In this document: piece after piece, positions 6,688-44,752 of the stretch | Layout of the letters: each line of letters opens with the position of its first letter | Position numbering within the stretch: position 1 is the first letter of the stretch | NCBI GenBank assembly: GCA_937864175.1 | Contig: CALMJH010000041.1 | Location: 124,001 to 188,000 of the forward strand | Direction: 5' to 3' | DNA: 64,000 nucleotides | Source: an uncultured Burkholderiales bacterium | GTDB taxonomy: Bacteria; Pseudomonadota; Gammaproteobacteria; Burkholderiales; Burkholderiaceae_A | Notes under the pieces: generated by a model | The model's input: only the letters and a program-made list of their open reading frames with translations | Databases searched by the model: none | What the model was told of the DNA's origin: nothing | Made by a program: the position numbers and the translations under genes

Positions 6688-7845
6688 CTAGATGGCGCGC
6701 AGTCCCTCCACGATCCGAATGCGATAACTCTTGATGGCCGGCCAGAGAGCTGCAAAGACGCCCGTTACCAAGGCCGCCACCATCTGCATGGCATTGGTCT
6801 CAAGAGAGACGACGAAACTCTTAAAGAGCGTACCGGTGGCTGAGTGAAAGAGGCTGGCCAGGGGATAGGTCACGGCAATGCCGATGAGCCCCCCAATAAC
6901 CGCCAGCAGCATTGACTCTGCAGCAATGAGGCCCGCCACAAAGGCAGGCGAAAAGCCCAGTGCTTTGAGGGTTGCATACTCGCTGGTCCGCTCCCGGGCG
7001 GTCATGCTCATGGTGTTGGCCATGACCGCCATAATGATCAGAATCACCACGTACGAGACGGCACGAATGGCCACCACGATGGCCTCCGTCATGGCGACAA
7101 AACCCAGCTGAAAGGCCTGCTCAGTCTCGGTCAGAGTCTCCTTGGGTGAGTTCTGAAAAAGGCCATCAATGGCCAGACCAACTGCTGCGGCCTGGTCAGC
7201 GCCGGTCACGCTGGTGATAAAGACCCCCACGCTGTCGGCATCTCTGGAGAGGTTGCGGCGCTTGATCTCCTCATTCAGGTAGGCCCAGTTGAAGTACATC
7301 TTGTTGGTGTCGGTTTTTTCTTCAGCCCCCTCGTAGATTCCGGCGATCAGAAACTCCCACTGCCCGGGGAAGAGTTGGCCCTTGAGCGTGATCATGTCTC
7401 CAACCCGGAACCCATAGGTGTCGGCCAGTCGCCGGCCCACCACCGCACTGCGCCGGTCCCGAATAAATTTGGACATCTCCTGGTCGGTCAGACGGTATTC
7501 CGGATAGATGCGAAAGTAAGACTCGGGATCGACCGCGAACTGAGGAAAGAAATTCTTGTTGTCCTTGTAGACCCCACCGAACCATCGGGAGATGCTCATC
7601 GCCTGGACACCATCGACCTGACGAATCCGGTCGCCGTAGGAGAGCGGCAGGGGGAAGATGAGCGAGACCGCACTACGGGTAATGAGCCTGGCCTGACTGG
7701 CAGACTCCGCACCCGAATACCAGGCCCGAACCACCGTAGAGAGCAGTCCAAAGGCCAGGACCGCCACAACCAGGCCGGCCAGCGTAAGCAGCGCCCGACC
7801 ACGGTTGCGCCAGATGTTCAGAAAGACAAGTCTTGCCAGCAGCAT
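6688..7845 (-). CDS. FtsX-type ABC transporter permease (MacB-like), first of three
   Basis: About 385 aa. N-terminal span near residues 15-38, a periplasmic domain, and three C-terminal spans, the FtsX/MacB topology. The ATG at 7845 (MLLARLVFLNIWRNRG) is taken as the start because it follows the ATPase stop by 7 nt and begins right before the usual NIWRNR motif. An in-frame TTG at 7875 inside the ATPase gene is the alternative. Pairs naturally with the downstream 389-aa permease. Confidence 0.85.
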   Translation of the reverse strand: MLLARLVFLNIWRNRGRALLTLAGLVVAVLAFGLLSTVVRAWYSGAESASQARLITRSAVSLIFPLPLSYGDRIRQVDGVQAMSISRWFGGVYKDNKNFFPQFAVDPESYFRIYPEYRLTDQEMSKFIRDRRSAVVGRRLADTYGFRVGDMITLKGQLFPGQWEFLIAGIYEGAEEKTDTNKMYFNWAYLNEEIKRRNLSRDADSVGVFITSVTGADQAAAVGLAIDGLFQNSPKETLTETEQAFQLGFVAMTEAIVVAIRAVSYVVILIIMAVMANTMSMTARERTSEYATLKALGFSPAFVAGLIAAESMLLAVIGGLIGIAVTYPLASLFHSATGTLFKSFVVSLETNAMQMVAALVTGVFAALWPAIKSYRIRIVEGLRAI

Positions 7846-7852
7846 GGGTGGG

Positions 7853-8566
7853 TTAGCCGCCGCCTGCTTGGACAACGGACCCCTTCGAGGTCTCGGTCTC
7901 GTCGGCCATCAGCTGGCCCTTCTCGAGATGCACAATCCGGCTGGCGGCGTCTGCCGCCTTGGGGTCATGGGTCACCATGACGATGGTCTTGCCCCGTTCT
8001 TGGTTAAGCCGCTGGAGCATGGCCAGAATGTCCTGGGCTGACTTCCGATCGAGATCGCCGGTGGGCTCATCGGCCACGATAAGACTGGGATTGGTAATGA
8101 GGGCCCGGGCAATCGCGACCCGCTGCTGCTGGCCACCCGAGAGCTCGCTTGGAATGTGGCCCGCGCGATCCGCAAGGCCCACAGCCGCCAGGGCCTCTGC
8201 CACCTGGGCCGACCGCTGGGCGGCCGGCAGGTCGGAGAGGGTCAGGGGAAGGGCGACGTTTTCTGCGGCGGTCAGCACTGGAATGAGGTTGTAGAACTGG
8301 AAAACAAATCCAACATGCTTTGCGCGCCACCGAGCCAAGGAGGCCTCATCGAGCTGTCCAATGTCGATGCCATCGATGCGAATGGTGCCGGCGGTTGGAC
8401 GATCGATTCCTGCAATGAGGTTAAGCAGGGTGCTTTTGCCCGAGCCCGAGGGCCCCATGAGCGCAACGAACTCGCCATCCTGGACGGTCAGGTCGAGACG
8501 ATCGAGGACCACAATGGACTGGTCTCCCCGTTGATACGACTTGCCCAGTTGTTCAACCTGAATCAC
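7853..8566 (-). CDS. ABC transporter ATP-binding protein (LolD/MacB family)
   Basis: 237-aa cytoplasmic ATPase. Walker [10 protein letters not shown] near residue 38, the Q-loop region [18 protein letters not shown], signature [15 protein letters not shown] near 143, Walker [13 protein letters not shown] near 162, and H-loop VTHD near 195 are all intact. The spacing and the TGDLD motif place it with LolD/MacB/FtsE-type ATPases. It starts with GTG, which overlaps the adaptor gene's stop codon as GTGA. It should energise all three permeases encoded downstream. Confidence 0.93.
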
Positions 8567-36210: not shown

Positions 36211-37414
36211 CCCTCTCTCATTCGATGTCGTCGTGGTGGGCGGTGGACCCGCTGGTTCAGTGGCCGCAGAACGTTTTGCCAAGGCAGGACACTCTGTCGC
36301 CCTCCTCGACCGAGCCGGCCGGGTCAAGCCCTGCGGTGGCGCAATTCCGCCTCGTCTCATTCAGGACTTCAACATTCCAGACCGTTTGCTGGTGGCAAAA
36401 ATTCGCTGTGCACGCATGATCGCCCCAAGCCGGAAGATGGTCGACATTCCCATCGACAATGGATTTGTCGGCATGGTGAACCGCGGTGAATTTGATGAAT
36501 TTCTTCGGGAGCGAGCCGCTGAAGCTGGTGCACGCCGACTTGTGGGCCAGTTTGTTCGCCTGCAGCCGGCTGACCAGTCCCCCTGGCGATCCCTGGAAAT
36601 ACTGCAGCGAGACCGAGACGGCCAGGAGTATCGCCAGCAGCTCCGGGCCCGCCTCATTATTGGAGCCGACGGCGCCAAGTCGCAGGTCGCCCAGCAGGCC
36701 GTTCCCGGGGCCGACCGCGGCAAGACGGTCTTCGCCTACCACGAGATCTTGCGGCGTCCAGCGGCCGACAACTCCCAGGCCCACGACTACGATCCAGACC
36801 GCTGCGATGTCTACTATCAGGGGGATGTCTCGCCTGACTTCTACGGCTGGATGTTTCCCCATGGGGACTGCCTGAGCATTGGCACCGGCAGCATGGACAA
36901 GGGCTTTTCCCTCCGGGGTGCCACAGCCCTGCTAAAGACTCGGGCGGGGCTCGAGAACTGCGAACTCCTGCGGAAAGAGGGCGCCCCCATTCCGCTCAAG
37001 CCCCTTCCTCGATGGGACGATGGACGTCAGGTCCTTCTCGCGGGTGATGCGGCGGGCGTCGTCGCGCCCGCCTCAGGCGAGGGCATTTATTACGCCATGC
37101 TTGGTGGCGACCTCGCCGCACAGGCGGGCCTGAATTTTCTTCGAACCGGCGATGCCAAGAGCCTCCGCCAGGCCCGAGCGGCCTTTATGAAAGACCACGG
37201 GCGCATCTTTATGATTCTCGGACTCCTGCAGAGGTTTTGGTACAGCTCCGAGAAAAGACGTGAACAATTTGTCAAAATCTGTGAAGACCAAGATGTTCAG
37301 CAACTCACCTTTGATGCCTACATGAACAAGCGACTCGTCCGTCGTCGACCAATGGCCCACCTGCGAATCCTAATGAAAGACCTTGCCCACCTGCTGGGCT
37401 TCGCCCGAGCATGA
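36203..37414 (+). CDS. bchP: Geranylgeranyl reductase BchP
   Basis: Flavoprotein that reduces the geranylgeranyl tail of bacteriochlorophyll to phytyl. 403 aa from a GTG at 36203, which has AGGAG 7 nt upstream and overlaps the preceding stop as GTGCCTGA. FAD motif VVVVGGGPAGSVAAERFA near residue 9; PCGGAIPPRL near 48; LLAGDAAGVVAPASGEGI near 281. It overlaps tspO by 4 nt. Confidence 0.95.
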   Translation: MPDPLSFDVVVVGGGPAGSVAAERFAKAGHSVALLDRAGRVKPCGGAIPPRLIQDFNIPDRLLVAKIRCARMIAPSRKMVDIPIDNGFVGMVNRGEFDEFLRERAAEAGARRLVGQFVRLQPADQSPWRSLEILQRDRDGQEYRQQLRARLIIGADGAKSQVAQQAVPGADRGKTVFAYHEILRRPAADNSQAHDYDPDRCDVYYQGDVSPDFYGWMFPHGDCLSIGTGSMDKGFSLRGATALLKTRAGLENCELLRKEGAPIPLKPLPRWDDGRQVLLAGDAAGVVAPASGEGIYYAMLGGDLAAQAGLNFLRTGDAKSLRQARAAFMKDHGRIFMILGLLQRFWYSSEKRREQFVKICEDQDVQQLTFDAYMNKRLVRRRPMAHLRILMKDLAHLLGFARA

Positions 37415-37887
37415 GCCGCGAGGTCTGGGTCGCGGCCGGCCTGGCTTTCGCAACCGCCAGCATTGGGGGCAGCCTCACCGTTTTAGACAGCTGGTACTAC
37501 AGCCTCGTTCAGCCCAGTTGGAAGCCACCCGACTGGGCCTTCGGACCAGCCTGGACCACTCTCTTTGGGCTGATGGCCTGGTCGGGCGTGGTGGGCTGGC
37601 GAGCAGCCCAGTCCATCGGCGGAAGACTGCCGCTGAAGCTCTTGGGTCTCTGGGCCCTCAATGGCCTCTTGAATATCGGCTGGAGCCTCTTGTTCTTCAA
37701 GCTCCAACGGCCCGACCTGGCTGTCATTGAGGTCGCCTTTCTCTGGCTCTCGATTGCTGGGCTACTGGTCCACCTGCGGTCCTATGCGCCCCGCGCAGCA
37801 CTTCTTCTACTGCCCTATCTGGCCTGGGTGAGTTTTGCCGCTGCGCTCAATGCGGCTGTTGTCTTGTTGAACACCCCCGTTGCCTAG
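37411..37887 (+). CDS. tspO: TspO/MBR tryptophan-rich sensory protein
   Basis: 158 aa, five predicted spans. The family signature WKPPDWAFGPAWTTLF lies near residue 36. TspO binds porphyrins and, in R. sphaeroides, dampens photosynthesis gene expression in oxygen through the PpsR/AppA system. Its ATGA overlap with bchP places it in the chlorophyll-tail operon. It is the last gene of the plus-strand unit and faces the puf operon terminator. Confidence 0.93.
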   Translation: MSREVWVAAGLAFATASIGGSLTVLDSWYYSLVQPSWKPPDWAFGPAWTTLFGLMAWSGVVGWRAAQSIGGRLPLKLLGLWALNGLLNIGWSLLFFKLQRPDLAVIEVAFLWLSIAGLLVHLRSYAPRAALLLLPYLAWVSFAAALNAAVVLLNTPVA

Positions 37888-37997: not shown

Positions 37998-39074
37998 CTA
38001 ACGGCGCAAGTGGTCCTTTGGTGGGCTTGCGGGAGCAGCCATGGAGGCCACCTTCTCGACTGGCAGACTCCCTTTTAGCTCAGGGTAGGCCTGCAGCATC
38101 GACTTCCCATAGAGCGGCTTCTGGACACCGTTGTGGCAGGTCGCACAGTTCACCTTGCCGATGTCACCCGTGGGTCCGAGACGATGGGCGGGCTGGATTC
38201 CGGTGAGTGGCACGACAAAGGTGTTGTTAAGGTCACGCACCATTCGAATGCCGACCCAGGCCGTGGTCCTCTGAGGCGTGCTCTGATCCCACTCGGCCAT
38301 TGCACGGGTGTTGTGACAGGTGGTGCAATTGGCACCCAGGCTGTCCGACATGTGGATCATGAGGCCATGAACATACTCCGCCTGCTTGAGTGAGGTCTTG
38401 TTGCCGGTGGGCAAGGCCGTGGTGCCCGCTACCCGAATGTTGGTGTCTTTGAGTAGAAATGGGGTAAAGGGGTCATAGGGGAGCGAGGCATTTTTCACAC
38501 TCTCCTGACCAGCCCGATTCTGCCCAAAATTGTTGCCTAACATTCGACCTGCGGTCTTCACCTCAGGTGCCGTAAACCAGATCTTCTCAGGCAGGTTGTT
38601 GCCCCGGTGGCAGGTGTAGCAGGTCACACCGGTGTTGCCGACGTGGGCCTGCCATTTGCTGTTGATGGTCGTTGTCATCTCGATCATCTTCCGAGCCACC
38701 ACCTTCTGGTAGAGCGAGTCATCAGCGAAATTCTGGGCATTGTGGCAGTAGGTACAGCCTTGCTCCGGAGCCACCCAGGTGGTAATGGCCAGCATGACCC
38801 GGTTAAATTCATTTTCGCTGAGGTCACCAAGAACCTTGACGTTCTTGTAGACCGCCGAGGCCTTTTTCCCACCCTTTTCAGCAGGAGGTAGCGCCTCGGG
38901 GATCTCATTGGCCGCGAGCTTCACGGCCTCGATCCGAGGGTTTACTACCTTCTCCATGCCGGTCCCACGGTAGCCGATCTGCTCGGTCACCTTGGGGGGT
39001 CGCTCGCAGCCGGTCAGGGCCAGGCCAAGGCCGAGGCTCAAGCCAAGCATCCAAGTCCGATAGGTCATTTTCAT
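37998..39074 (-). CDS. pufC: Reaction-centre tetraheme cytochrome c subunit PufC
   Basis: 358 aa, periplasmic, gives electrons to the oxidised special pair. Four heme-binding motifs are seen in order: CTYCH, CYTCH, CTTCH and CATCH. The N-terminus is a lipoprotein signal with lipobox LTGC, so Cys23 should be lipidated and anchor the protein. Last gene of the puf operon, after pufM, as usual in bacteria with a bound cytochrome. Confidence 0.96.
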   Translation of the reverse strand: MKMTYRTWMLGLSLGLGLALTGCERPPKVTEQIGYRGTGMEKVVNPRIEAVKLAANEIPEALPPAEKGGKKASAVYKNVKVLGDLSENEFNRVMLAITTWVAPEQGCTYCHNAQNFADDSLYQKVVARKMIEMTTTINSKWQAHVGNTGVTCYTCHRGNNLPEKIWFTAPEVKTAGRMLGNNFGQNRAGQESVKNASLPYDPFTPFLLKDTNIRVAGTTALPTGNKTSLKQAEYVHGLMIHMSDSLGANCTTCHNTRAMAEWDQSTPQRTTAWVGIRMVRDLNNTFVVPLTGIQPAHRLGPTGDIGKVNCATCHNGVQKPLYGKSMLQAYPELKGSLPVEKVASMAAPASPPKDHLRR

Positions 39075-39090
39075 GATGAGGATCCTTTTT

Positions 39091-40071
39091 TTATTGGGCT
39101 GCTGCAGGCGTCATGGGATCAACCACAGGCCCCCAGATCGCGGGGTAGCCCGGAGCCACGCCGTGTTTAACGGCCCAGAGGTACCAGTTGTCCACCACCG
39201 TGCCGGTCAGCAGAATGCCGATGCCGCCGGTGATACAGGTAAGGACGGCAAACCACCAGGCCCAGCGGTGAATGGACTCCATCGTGGCATTGAAGCCCAT
39301 GGTCCAGCGCCAGAAGAGTGCTGCACGCTCGGAGGCTGATCCACGGTCGACAATCTGCTCAATCTCACGCTCTCCACCGTAGCGGCTGACCGCCAGAATC
39401 GTGGCACCGTGCATCGCGAAGAGCAGAGTCGAGCCATAGAGGAAGGCAATCGAAAGCATGTGGAAGGGGTTGTAGAAGAGGTTGCCGTATCGCAGTGAGA
39501 AGGCGGTGGTCCAATCCAGATGAGAAAAAATGCCCCAGGGCACTGCCTCGGCCCAACTTCCCATGAGGATCGGGCGGAAGAAGCCCAAGACCAGGTAGAG
39601 CCAGATCGCGCCTGCAAAAGCCCAGGCCACATGGGTCCCCATCTTCAAAGCCACTGCGCGACGATAGGTTCGAACCCACCAGAGCAGGATTGAGACGGTG
39701 ATGAAAAAGCCCGAGAAGAGCCACCAGCCACCCTCATTCATCGGCGGAAGCCTGAGACCGTAACTGGCGTTAGGGGGATCGACACTGAGCCAGAAGAGCT
39801 GCCGAACGAACTCAATCGGGCTGTAGTTGACCTGGACCAGATAATTCCATCCAATCGCGGTGAAGCCAATCACGAAGAAGAGGATGGAGGCGATTCCTGT
39901 AAATCCCAGGTAGAGGGGACCGATCTGGGCATTGCCGAGACGGCCGGCGAGATGCCAGTGCCAGGGCTTGCCCACCCGTTCTGCCGTGTCGCGATCCCGA
40001 TCGAGTGGAATTCCCCACTCGACTGGTCCATTGACTTGGACCTGGGTAAAAAGGTTTTGATAATCAGCCAT
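39091..40071 (-). CDS. pufM: Photosynthetic reaction centre M subunit
   Basis: 326 aa, five membrane spans. Binds special-pair and accessory bacteriochlorophyll, bacteriopheophytin and the primary quinone. Conserved segments: [19 protein letters not shown] (special-pair His), [10 protein letters not shown] and the C-terminal [10 protein letters not shown] with the iron-ligand His. A good SD (GGGAG) lies upstream. 21 nt separate it from pufL. Confidence 0.97.
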
Positions 40072-40092: not shown

Positions 40093-40917
40093 TTAGGACC
40101 AAATCGGTAGACGCAGCCACCAGCCCCACCATTCGGGCCAGCCCCGGGACCAGAAAGGTCCACTAATCACGATGCAGACGGCGCTGAAAAAGCCTGCCGC
40201 CAGCGCCAGAAAGAGACCAAGCCGGTGGATGCCAAGCGTGCCAACGGAGTAGCCGATGATGTCCCTGAAGAAGGTGTCCTCGTACTCTGGCGACTTCACC
40301 ACCTCACCCTTGCCTGGGTTGGTGGCCGAGAGAATGAGCGAGCCGTGCAGGGCCAGCGCAAAGGTCGTGGTGAAGAAGAGGCTCACCGCAATCATGTGGG
40401 CTGGGTTGTAGTGGAAATGCAGGAACTGGTAGCCCACGTTTGAGACCCAGTCGAGGTGGCTGAGGATTCCATAGGGGAATCCATGGCCCCAAGCCCCCAG
40501 CAGGACTGGCCGAATGACCACCAGGGTCACATAGGCAAAGATGGCCACGCTAAAGGCAAACGGCACGTGGTATCCCATGCCGAGCTTTCGGCAGATCTCG
40601 ACCTCTCGAAGGGCCCAGCTTCCAAAGGCACCAATGGCACAGATCGTAATGACCTGCCAGAGCCCACCCTCCATCAGCGGTGCAAGACCGAGACCGTACT
40701 TCAGGTCAGGAGGTGCGATGTTGATCTGCCACAGATTCCAGGTGGGCCCCTGCGAGGCGCCATAGAGAATCAGGGCAGTGCCCAGGAAGCTAAAAAATAT
40801 GGTCAAGACCCCAAAGAAGCCGACATAGAAAGGGCCCACCCAAAAATCAAAGAGGTCGCCACCCAGCAGGGTGCCGCCCCGAACTCTGTACTTTCTCTCA
40901 AAACTTAGCATGGCCAT
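40093..40917 (-). CDS. pufL: Photosynthetic reaction centre L subunit
   Basis: 274 aa, five membrane spans, partner of PufM. N-terminus [16 protein letters not shown]-like (here [19 protein letters not shown]), [15 protein letters not shown] with the special-pair His, and [15 protein letters not shown] on the quinone side. Strong SD (GAGGAGG) upstream. A stable hairpin precedes it in the intercistronic gap with pufA. Confidence 0.97.
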
Positions 40918-40944
40918 TTTTATGTCCTCCTCGTTCGATGAGCA

Positions 40945-40978
40945 GGCAATCTCAGGTCGCTAGCTCTCTGAGATTGCC
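40945..40978 (-). promoter_or_regulatory. Intercistronic stem-loop between pufA and pufL
   Basis: GGCAATCTCAG (40945-40955) and CTGAGATTGCC (40968-40978) make a perfect 11-bp stem with a 12-nt loop. A hairpin at this position is known in Rhodobacter to protect the pufBA mRNA from 3' decay, so antenna subunits outnumber reaction-centre subunits. Here the protected segment would also include the 74-aa gene. Confidence 0.85.
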
Positions 40979-40990
40979 CGCCTTTTTTAC

Positions 40991-41173
40991 TTACTTCGGT
41001 GCTGCGACCTTGGCGGCCGAGGCTTTGTACTCGGCTTGGCTCAGGCCATCCATCCAGTTGAACCGAACCGTGCTCAGCAGAATGAGATGAATCATTGCTG
41101 CCAGGCCGAACAAGAACACGCCTTGCACAACCATTGCACGCAGTGGATCGTAAAGTTTCCAAACTCGCCACAT
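40991..41173 (-). CDS. pufA: Light-harvesting 1 alpha subunit PufA
   Basis: 60 aa. N-terminus MWRVWKLYDPLRAMVVQGVF is the LH1-alpha signature. One membrane span contains the bacteriochlorophyll-ligand His (AAMIHLILLST), followed by RFNWMDG and a short Ala/Lys C-terminus. SD AGGAG, 8 nt before the ATG. It follows the unknown 74-aa gene by 15 nt. Confidence 0.96.
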   Translation of the reverse strand: MWRVWKLYDPLRAMVVQGVFLFGLAAMIHLILLSTVRFNWMDGLSQAEYKASAAKVAAPK

Positions 41174-41188
41174 GACGTTTTCTCCTTT

Positions 41189-41413
41189 TCAGGTGATATG
41201 CGACATCAGGGTGTAGACAGCTGCCCTAACGCCACTAAAGAGATTCCGACTACTCTCTGCGCCAGGAAACCAGGTGCGCCAGTTCAGCATCAGAATCGTT
41301 GCCAACAACGCGACCACAAAGAACGCGATGTAGACCGAGACAAACACCAACGAGAAAGCCAGTGAATCGGCCTTGACGGTGGACCGTTGAACCAGTGATG
41401 GACTCTGTTGCAT
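41189..41413 (-). CDS. Unknown 74-aa single-span membrane protein between pufB and pufA
   Basis: Starts at the ATG at 41413 with AGGAGG 7 nt upstream, one of the best SDs in the window. N-terminal polar part (about 1-18), one membrane span (about 19-42, LAFSLVFVSVYIAFFVVALL), then NWRTWFPGAES and a 25-residue tail ending VYTLMSHIT. No His lies in the span, so it should not bind bacteriochlorophyll as an LH1 alpha or beta does. It lacks clear PufX motifs. Position in the pufBA segment and strong translation suggest a core-complex component (such as a ring-gap, gamma-like or W-like subunit) or an assembly factor. It is not pufQ, which would precede pufB. Function not recognised. Confidence 0.75.
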   Translation of the reverse strand: MQQSPSLVQRSTVKADSLAFSLVFVSVYIAFFVVALLATILMLNWRTWFPGAESSRNLFSGVRAAVYTLMSHIT

Positions 41414-41437
41414 GGCTAGGCCTCCTGTTTCAGAGAT

Positions 41438-41584
41438 TTAGTGGAACCAAGGACGCCATGCCCAAACCAGAATATGGGCAATGACGGCTACAGCCGTGAA
41501 TCCAACCAAGCCCTGCATGTAATACGTGTGGAACTCTTGGGCTTCTTCGTCGGACAGGCCGGAGATGCTTCTGTTGTCGCTCAT
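41438..41584 (-). CDS. pufB: Light-harvesting 1 beta subunit PufB
   Basis: 48 aa. The translation begins [19 protein letters not shown], typical LH1-beta, with [19 protein letters not shown] in the span (bacteriochlorophyll-ligand His) and RPWFH at the end. SD AAGGAG lies 8 nt before the ATG. First structural gene of the puf operon; its 5' leader carries two hairpins and a palindrome. Confidence 0.95.
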
Positions 41585-41602
41585 GGGAGGTTCTCCTTAG
41601 AG

Positions 41603-41641
41603 TTGATCCGCAAGGATCAAGTCCACGCAGGGCCCGCGTGG
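41603..41641 (-). promoter_or_regulatory. Two hairpins in the pufB 5' leader
   Basis: Hairpin 1: TTGATCC (41603-41609) with GGATCAA (41614-41620), 7 bp, 4-nt loop. Hairpin 2: CCACGC (41623-41628) with GCGTGG (41636-41641), 6 bp, 7-nt loop. They lie 19-57 nt upstream of the pufB start codon and could stabilise the 5' end of processed puf mRNA. Confidence 0.65.
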
Positions 41642-41651
41642 AGAGGGCAGC

Positions 41652-41668
41652 CGTGACACCGTGTCACG
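41652..41668. promoter_or_regulatory. Perfect 17-bp palindrome upstream of pufB
   Basis: CGTGACAC (41652-41659), one C, GTGTCACG (41661-41668): a perfect 8+1+8 palindrome in the gap between bchZ and pufB. It has the size and symmetry of a dimeric repressor or activator site. It contains GACA and TGTC but not in the TGT-N12-ACA order of PpsR. The protein that binds it is unknown. Confidence 0.55.
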
Positions 41669-41757
41669 ACGTTCTGGTGAAGCAACTGCTGCTTCGTGTC
41701 TGGTCATGGATGGGGCTGGACTGGTCCAGTCCATCGTGCTCATGAAGTTCTGGCGGG

Positions 41758-43233
41758 TCATGCGGTGACCCCCGTGTGCAGGGCCTCTTGGGCCTCCTGC
41801 AGATGGCTGGCTTCCACCTGGTCTGCTCCAAGCTCACGCGCCAGGCGCTCGGCCCGATCCCTAAGCCGCTTGGCCACCGAGATCTGGATGAGGACGGGCT
41901 GGGACGAGACCAAGTCGTCGAGGAGTTCCCGGGCCTCAGGCGTCCAGGCGAGGCTCCTGCTTGAGGCCCCCGTTGCCGCAGCCTGCAGGCCGGTGGGTGT
42001 GGCCTCGACCTTGTCGAGATCAGTCCCCAGAGGCAGGATATGGAAGAGCGCATCAAAGAGGCCATTGCAGACCTCCTGTAAGAGATAGACCGCCCCCGCA
42101 TAGCCCATGAAGGGCGTCCCGGTGTGTCGTCGAATGATGGCGCCGGGAAACGAGGCTGGAATGAAGCTCGGACGGGCACCGGCCTCGGCGCAGTACATCC
42201 GCTCGTTGTAGCTGCCGAACAAGACCAACGGGGTCTTTTTCTGACAGAACTCACGGACCATCTCATTGGCCGTCTTTTCCCCGGGCTTTCGGGCCACCGC
42301 AAACTGGCAGGGCAGGCCCAGCTCGTCTTGCAAATAATGTCGAACGCCGCGGCTGTAGGTCTCATTGGCCACGATGCCAAAGCTTGCCGTGCCAAAGAAA
42401 TCCTGGGTCACCGATCGCCAGAGGTCCCAGATGGGTTTAATCGTGGTGTGCTTCTCGCGCTCTATGAAGGGCTCGGGGTCCAGGCCCAAGAGCTCTCCAA
42501 GGCTGCGAAGAAATGCGGTGGTGCTGTGAAGGCCTATGGGTGCCTGGAGATAGGGCCTGTCCAGCTGTTCGCAGAGCTGCCGACCAAATTCGCGGTAGAG
42601 ACAGACGTTGACCTCTGCCTCGGCCAGTCGCGGCACGTCGGTCAGGTGGCTGCCCAGAGGAAAGCTCATGTGGACTTCTGCACCGATGCCCTCGACCAGA
42701 CGACGGACCTCCGCGAGATCGCTGGGCATATTGAACATGCCATAGGCCGGCCCGATGAGGTTGACCTTTGGACGCTCACCCTCCTTACGGGGCTTAAGGG
42801 CTGGAACCTTCTTCATGCCGTACTCTGTCCAGAGCCAGGTCATGGCTCGATTGGCGGCCTGCCACTGGTCTTCGTCGATGGTTCGCGGCAGAAAGCGTGA
42901 AATATTCATGCCCTCGGGTGTGACGCCACCGCCAATCATCTCTGCAATGGAGCCAGTGACAACAACGGCAGGAAGGTCGGGGTCTAAGACTGCATGGGCG
43001 CGCTTCATGGCGCCTTCGGTGCCCTCGCGACCCAGCTGCTCCTCGGCCAAGCCGGTGACCACAATCGGCAGCTCGTGGGGTGGCAAGGCATCGGTGTAGT
43101 GCAGGACCGACGTGACCGGAAGGTTTTCGCAGCCCACAGGGCCATCGATCACCACCTGGAGCCCCTTGATGGCCGTGAAGACATAGACGGCTCCCCAGTA
43201 GCCGCCTGCACGATCGTGGTCGAGGACGAGCAT
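41758..43233 (-). CDS. bchZ: Chlorophyllide a reductase subunit Z
   Basis: NifK-like catalytic subunit of chlorophyllide oxidoreductase (with BchX and BchY), which reduces ring B to give the bacteriochlorin. About 491 aa from the ATG at 43233 ([19 protein letters not shown]), 4 nt after the bchY stop; the longer frame upstream lies inside bch[20 protein letters not shown] holds conserved cluster residues near 37. 173 nt separate it from pufB, enough for a puf promoter. Confidence 0.95.
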
Positions 43234-43237
43234 CGCC

Positions 43238-44752
43238 TTAGGTCCCCATGGCCTCTTGGGCACGCCGAGCCGCCCGTTTTTCTTGTTGGCGCCGAACCTG
43301 GGCCTTGAACTCTGGGTGATGGACAGGCGAGTCCTGCCAGATGCCGGCATTGTCGCCAAGCCCAGTCTCACCAAAGAATGACTTCATGGTGTCAAACCTT
43401 GGCTTGTTGGCCAGGGCCGCATTGACCACCTGGGCCAGTGAGCCTGCCCCTGCGGCTCCCATCAGCGGACGGGCGGAAATGAGATTGGTGAAATAGAGCG
43501 ACGGAATGGTCTGTTCTTTTGCCTTCTGAACCACGGGGGTTGTCCCAATCGCAAGATCAGGCTCAAACTCCTGGACCGCCGCAAGGTCTTGCTCGAGTGA
43601 GGCCCGGTACTGGACATGGACTCCTCTGGCCTGAAGCCAGTCGCGGTCTTCTGTGCTCATGGTGGTCTGCGGACAGGCCGTTCCCACGTAGCGGACGTCT
43701 GCCCCACTCTCCATCAAGAGTCGTGCCACCAGCAACTCTGAGCCCTCGTAGCCACTCACCGTGATCCGTCCACGAATTGGTGAACGCTCCAGCACCGTCT
43801 TGAGACTTGGTAGTACGGCTTGCTTGGCCTGCGCAATGAGGTCCTCCGGGGTATTGGTGGCCCGCCCAATGGCCTCCAACCAGGACGCCGTGCCCTCGTA
43901 GCCGACGGGGGCCGACCCGACGATGGGACGGCCCGCAGAGGAGAAGACACGCATGCTCGAAGTGTAGAAAGGATGGATCGCTGCAACAGCGGCGCAATCC
44001 AGTGCCGAATAGAGCTCCCGCCATTCGCGGGTTGGAACCACCGCTCCTGCGGATAGGTTCATCGGTCGCAGCATCTGGCTAATGACCATGGGGTCGGCCG
44101 GAAACATCTCCCCCAGCAGGGTCACCGCAGGCAGGGCATGCTTGCCTGCTCGTGGCGTTGCGACAGGGCCCGACTGGGCCTCTGTCATGGCGTAACCCAG
44201 CATCGCTCCGGCCAGCACGTCCTTGGCCTCCGCATGGGTGGGGACGCCAAACCCAGGGACATCGATCCCGATAATCCGCACCCCGTTAACCTCCTTGGGG
44301 AGCAGTTGCAGTGGCACACCACTGGCCGTCGGGACACAGAGATTGATGAGGACAAGGGCATCGAGTTTGGCGGGGTCTGCCTGGGCATAGACCACCTCCC
44401 GAATGTCCTCGAAGAGCTTGCCAGTGACCAGCGTTTCAGAGTTAAAGGGCACATAGCCTACTGGCCGTCGGGCTCCGTAGAAGTGCGATGTGAAGGTAAG
44501 GCCGTAGACACAACAGGCGCTGCCCGACAAGATGGTGGCGGTTCGGCGCATCCGAAGGCCCACTCGAAGAGAACCAAAGGCTGGGCACATGCTCTGGGGC
44601 TGGTCATGTGGCCCCTTGGGATAATCCTTGGCGTACTGATTCAGCAACTCAGCCTTGCCAGCTGCATGGGCCGAGGCGAGCAGGCGATCCGATCCCGAGA
44701 CACAGGCTGTCCCCTCTTCGGGAAGTATCGGAATCGGCTGGCGGGCGTTCAT
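43238..44752 (-). CDS. bchY: Chlorophyllide a reductase subunit Y
   Basis: NifD-like partner of BchZ. 504 aa. Conserved cysteines lie in [21 protein letters not shown] (split: [13 protein letters not shown]) near residue 55 and in [19 protein letters not shown] near 78. Starts 4 nt after the bchX stop with no strong SD, so translation is probably coupled. Confidence 0.95.

Follow-up and report, generated by a model that had tools for sequence, protein, structure and literature searches.

The window, that is, the whole stretch of 64,000 nucleotides that was analysed, carries on its minus strand an operon with the gene order bchX, bchY, bchZ, pufB, X, pufA, pufL, pufM and pufC (Table 1), the first three genes being what we take to be bchX, bchY and bchZ from the usual operon order and from the look of their translations. 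X, the subject of this analysis, is a 74-codon ORF located between pufB and pufA, whose translation begins MQQSPSLVQ and ends SHIT, with an AGGAGG lying 7 nt upstream of its ATG. The ORF and its ribosome-binding site had been described in a first-pass annotation of this DNA, which left the strand unstated, and both were found as described, as were the membrane span free of histidine and the motif NWRTWFPG, which are visible in the window sequence. The span, as read from the sequence, covers approximately residues 21–44 and is followed by a conserved tail at about residues 49–74. The gaps between pufB and X (24 nt) and between X and pufA (15 nt) showed no significant structure when folded, and the hairpins that had been proposed to bound the antenna segment proved to be real. 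Since the leader hairpins and the pufA–pufL hairpin flank X, and the gaps between them are unstructured, X is placed inside the antenna segment.

Table 1. Features of the puf region in the window.
Feature	Position	Strand	Remarks
pufC	37998..39074	minus	
pufM	39091..40071	minus	
pufL	40093..40917	minus	
pufA–pufL intergenic hairpin	40920..40990	minus	-25.9 kcal/mol, z -4.1
pufA	40991..41173	minus	LH1 alpha, 60 aa
X (ORF74-type gene)	41189..41413	minus	His-less LH1-beta paralogue, 74 aa, one span
pufB–X intergenic stretch	41414..41437	minus	holds the AGGAGG ribosome-binding site of X
pufB	41438..41584	minus	short-tailed LH1 beta, 48 aa, His present
Leader ahead of pufB	41586..41700	minus	three successive hairpins, -45 kcal/mol, z -3.0
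bchZ	41758..43374	minus	upstream neighbour; presumed name

Elsewhere in the window, a TspO-like membrane protein, named by the look of its sequence only, is encoded at 37411–37887 (plus strand) after a geranylgeranyl-reductase-like gene, and a similar frame was observed beside the same neighbour in the loci L029–L031.

The source of ORF74, a gene of Roseateles depolymerans occupying the same slot, is reportedly Suyama 2002. Excerpts of a further paper place ORF74 (RD2015_RS05155) between pufB (RS05150) and pufA (RS05160), report that it is co-transcribed with both in a major 1-kb puf transcript, and count ORF74, pufB and pufA as the three loci most reduced in an SP70 sigma-factor mutant (PMC10037100). 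As an ORF, X is thus already represented in print. ORF74 and X were matched by position and by name, the name indicating 74 codons, and the same excerpts assign neither a family nor a function to ORF74 (PMC10037100).

The conservation of X between pufB and pufA, which had been suggested as a check, was followed at two scales. A protein search of 61 genomes returned strong matches in the same genus, in the same family and in a few genomes of the same order, and relatives were recovered from 19 loci on named contigs. Among cultured bacteria, Hydrogenophaga sp. IBVHS1 (L038) bears X. The order pufB–X–pufA was kept in 39/39 homologue loci from these two sources, a set that takes in the window itself and some near-copies. 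The possibility that X is a chance ORF was ruled out by this conserved order, together with the 85% identity and the dN/dS of 0.12 between the X of the window and that of its nearest congener. No match was found in the plasmid collection searched for plasmid-borne homologues. In L096, L097 and L098 (genomes G230, G259 and G098), the two antenna genes pufB and pufA differ strongly in type from those elsewhere, with X still between them. As a side observation, two public MAG records titled Bordetella parapertussis hold photosynthesis genes, L021 a bch–puf cluster and L026 puf genes, and this label is almost certainly wrong in both.

At the scale of the order, 399 genomes were sampled, among which 47 had a pufL match; G001 and G318 were left out because the contig ends before or inside pufL, leaving 45 assessable phototrophs. 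X is present in 37 of these 45, distributed over 13 of 16 genera, and an intervening gene is the usual state within the order. Five of the 45 (G053, G187, G201, G272 and G301) carry no X and one long-tailed, histidine-bearing PufB, and three (G092, G209 and G239) combine a short PufB with a Q-like gene upstream and no X. PufB is short wherever X occurs. Both states are found in genus g31, where three genomes have the long PufB alone and five have a short PufB with X. The three genomes of g61 have a Q-like gene instead of X. In G076, pufB and X lie at a contig end, with part of pufA on another contig. X and long-tailed PufB were told apart by reading the sequences, because the X profile also matches long PufB (E about 1e-18 to 1e-19). 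A second sample of 398 genomes, drawn from the phylum, contained 27 phototrophs from outside the order. The locus was retrieved for 26 of them (all but G771), and in none of these 26 did anything of the X type match in the interval from pufB to pufA. The X-profile search matched 15 of the 27, and these matches are read as the genomes' own pufB, plus an upstream Q-like frame in G427, G751 and perhaps G771. Hence the earlier statement that puf operons run pufB–pufA directly is correct outside the order (26/26 loci) and fails within it.

The sequence of X is evidently constrained. Among 12 pairs tested, dN/dS was 0.06–0.18 in ten, with values of 0.35 and 0.41 in the other two; several residues, tail included, are near-invariant across 13 genera. 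The distance from X to pufA is 9–26 nt in 56/56 cases, similar to the 10–19 nt that separate long PufB and pufA in 16 loci. The amino-acid sequence of X nevertheless changes faster than those of pufA and pufB in several pairs, which, along with the loss of the histidine described below, is what a decaying, functionless duplicate would display. Such decay is scarcely credible for a gene whose frame is open, whose dN/dS is low in most pairs, whose tail is preserved and which most phototrophs of the order have kept. X could also be supposed to act as a spacer, translational or stoichiometric, that tunes the beta:alpha ratio and has a product of little importance, as would suit a position within the hairpin-bounded antenna segment. 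The Shine–Dalgarno strength of X (median -6.6 kcal/mol) is in fact weaker than that of pufB (-8.6 kcal/mol) in 36/55 loci (Wilcoxon p 0.027, the loci being related), but set against pufA the weakness is unclear (29/55, p 0.45), and in the window X has the strongest Shine–Dalgarno sequence of the three genes. Across the 55 loci, this strength was not decisive as a sign of low translation or copy number of X, and the amino-acid constraint and near-invariant residues make the spacer very improbable.

The profile comparisons point to one family. X against long-tailed PufB gave a profile–profile E of 1.2e-21 with a score of 104, the best of 100 column-shuffled controls scoring 20, and X against short PufB gave E 3.2e-8, with 0/100 shuffles as good. 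The tail of X alone matched the tail of long PufB with E 3.1e-11 in a comparison made without shuffles. Against PDB sequences, the best matches of the X profile were LH1 beta chains, headed by 8z81_B (E 2e-14), and a histidine is present in all five LH1 beta chains aligned; down to E 0.2, only LH beta-type or antenna chain names were returned. Taken alone, the X of the window had the antenna families as its matches, reaching E 1.9 (9.2 bits, below the 23-bit cut-off) with Pfam LHC (PF00556) and E 0.011 (15.7 bits, below the 61-bit cut-off) with NCBIfam pufB (NF040862). A relationship to PufA was considered and rejected (hhalign probability 0.9%, 22/80 shuffles as good). The view of the first-pass annotation that X is not recognisable as an LH1 subunit was consequently not borne out by the similarity to long PufB and to the PDB beta chains.

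The position of the bacteriochlorophyll-ligating histidine of LH1 beta is here numbered 0. This histidine is kept in 17/17 long and 42/42 short PufB sequences and occurs in 0/56 distinct X sequences, where position 0 is Gln in 43, Thr in 6 (among them the X of the window), Ser in 4, and Phe, Gly and Leu in one each. LH1 beta has a second histidine at -18, which is absent from 52/56 and present in 4/56, and the N-terminal SGL motif is found in 0/56. Conversely, the helix frame is preserved, with Ala-4, Trp+6 and Trp+9 each in 55/56. On the similarity to PufB, the loss of His0 and the kept helix frame and tail, the identity of X is now clear: X is a paralogue of LH1 beta (PufB) that has diverged and lost the pigment ligand. 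In searches of an open-access library, no histidine-less PufB paralogue was found in print. Glutamine can ligate chlorophylls in some other proteins, and for this reason the loss of pigment binding by X is put forward as probable only. X might then still bind bacteriochlorophyll through Gln0 or another ligand, as a minor LH1 beta isoform, in keeping with the Gln majority, the retained Trp+9 and Ala-4, and the few sequences with a histidine at -18. This is improbable, considering that the window has Thr, that position 0 in 13/56 is occupied by Thr, Ser, Phe, Gly or Leu, and that His-18 is mostly, and the SGL motif always, missing.

Concerning the origin of X, the X sequences fell on one side of a tree branch with support 81/90 (99 rows, 75 columns), and, in a tree of 82 rows without the Q family and five long rows, formed a clade with support 100/100. 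X attaches nearest to PufB proteins from its own order that have the long tail (L066, L051, L053 and L069), and one clade of X with these four long PufB rows was not rejected (p-AU 0.49). Once the Q family is added, it shares one side of a branch with X (93/88), a joining that may be false because both X and Q have long branches. The Q family consists of small Q-like proteins, observed between bchZ and pufB in L047, L048, L054, L108, L110, L112, L116, L117, L122, L124, L130 and L131. These proteins are missed by the Pfam PufQ model and are distantly related to long-tailed LH1 beta, whose profile they match with E 3e-7 (0/80 shuffles). Their profile matched that of X with E 2.1e-7 (0/100 and 0/80 shuffles as good) and that of PufQ with E 0.0021 (1/80 shuffles as good), so that "PufQ-like" is a loose name for a family barely tied to PufQ. 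X itself matched Rhodobacterales-type PufQ with E 4.4e-5 (0/80 shuffles) over the N-terminal half only and on five PufQ rows; long PufB showed no similarity to PufQ in the profile comparison (34/80 shuffles as good); and PF05398 (PufQ) gave a single match among 22 X members (E 0.015), not reaching its cut-off. The simplest origin for X would be that a long PufB was duplicated and the copies then divided the labour between them; a histidine-less ancestor shared by X and Q is a possible alternative. The comparisons suggest an antenna beta protein as the source of both small puf proteins, X and Q.

A PufQ-like assembly factor is the main rival to a structural role for X, because the distant Q-like family is related to X and was not found beside it in any of the genomes searched. 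According to this explanation, X would be a functional stand-in for PufQ, a small membrane factor steering tetrapyrrole flux or handing pigment to nascent LH1 rather than staying in the complex as a subunit. In X-bearing genomes, the Q profile found nothing, or only X or pufB, and PF05398 exceeded the Pfam cut-off in 10/74 phototroph genomes, none of them with X; the shared branch side of X and Q fits as well, and excerpts of PMC5725709 describe haem/BChl flux as governed by PufQ. However, the similarity of X to long-tailed PufB far exceeds its similarity to Q or PufQ, and X lies between pufB and pufA rather than upstream of pufB. X and Q are both missing in five genomes of the order, and their mutual exclusion is confounded with phylogeny. 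PufQ can, moreover, be missing altogether, as in the Halieaceae and Sphingomonadales according to excerpts of PMC12654162. With the long branches of X and Q and the loose tie of Q to PufQ added to these points, the stand-in is a serious but rather unlikely explanation.

The preferred reading, to which a probability of roughly 0.5 was given, makes X an accessory subunit of the core complex that resembles beta, has no pigment and supplies the tail missing from PufB. More tentative is the proposal that in most phototrophs of the order the core-antenna beta protein was divided into a short, pigment-binding PufB and a tailed, pigment-less paralogue that is a structural RC-LH1 subunit. X probably helps to build or shape the light-trapping complex rather than to catch light, in agreement with the first-pass annotation, where a membrane protein of the antenna segment with no pigment ligand was considered plausibly an accessory or assembly component, and its conservation and loss of His0 are consistent with this. 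X would descend from a long-tailed LH1 beta, having lost the histidine and retained the Ala-4/Trp+6/Trp+9 frame and the tail, the adjoining pufB having retained the histidine and being without the tail. It would insert at the LH1 ring in one or a few copies and pack against alpha through its beta-type face. Its tail, putatively on the periplasmic side, may take over the job done elsewhere by the PufB tail, the candidates being contact between RC and LH1, closure of the ring or passage of quinones, and ring assembly. The topology, incorporation into the core complex, copy number and role of X are inferred, and the sequence does not choose among the ring-gap, gamma-like and dimer-control roles suggested in the first-pass annotation. 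An AlphaFold model of X is confident in the helix, with blocks of 75–94 pLDDT in residues 11–40, but the low confidence in the tail (pLDDT 55–62) speaks against the subunit reading. So do the two higher dN/dS values, the g61 genomes that manage with a Q-like gene, and the common branch side of X and Q, which would fit assembly-factor ancestry as well.

A function of X as partner of the reaction-centre cytochrome only was considered unlikely, since 5/5 tested genomes of genus g3 have X but no PufC match, these genomes being 76–92% complete. Two further observations concern this cytochrome. In L029, L030 and L031, a cupredoxin-like gene at about 7420–7990 (plus strand) follows pufM, with no pufC match nearby; the L031 protein, the sole one searched, matched Pfam Copper-bind with E 1.6e-15, and these proteins may be electron donors to a cytochrome-less reaction centre. 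In genus g4 (G026, G075, G119, G158 and G195), 5/5 genomes searched have a second PufC-type gene, which is separated from the puf operon by more than 40 kb or sits on a different contig.

LH1 beta is regarded as a pigment carrier, and a conserved ligand-less beta paralogue would mean that the phototrophs of one betaproteobacterial order have naturally uncoupled the structural role from that of carrying pigment. If the subunit reading is true, the rings of this order would differ in composition from every solved core complex found. Quinone exchange and ring assembly here may need a part missing from current models, given that all good PDB matches are named as ordinary LH chains.

Among known systems, PufX, protein-W, gamma and gamma-like polypeptides are single-span LH1 partners without bacteriochlorophyll, as X is proposed to be. 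The X profile had 45 distinct PDB matches with E up to 10, and no chain bearing one of these names was among them. PufX itself is ruled out by place, X lying between pufB and pufA and the window having pufC after pufM, and excerpts of PMC9640540 describe the Rhodopila gamma-like polypeptide as running opposite to beta. PufQ (PF05398) and the Q-like proteins resemble X in being small, single-span products of the puf operon with distant profile similarity. X differs in falling below the Pfam cut-off and in its other operon place, and Q is devoid of the WRxW.PG motif. Long-tailed PufB proteins (for example 8z81_B, 9m8m_B and 7xxf_B, and those of L051, L053, L066 and L069) share with X the residues Ala-4, Trp+6, Arg+7 and Trp+9, a Pro-Gly after the helix and a tail of approximately the same length in register. 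Besides the histidines and the SGL motif, X differs from them in lacking Pro+8, with Ser or Thr there in 47/56, and in a more uniform tail, GVxAAVYTxMSxL. The solved complex whose RC-L chain is closest to that of the window, 9m8m, has a tailed beta of 67 residues in 16 chains.
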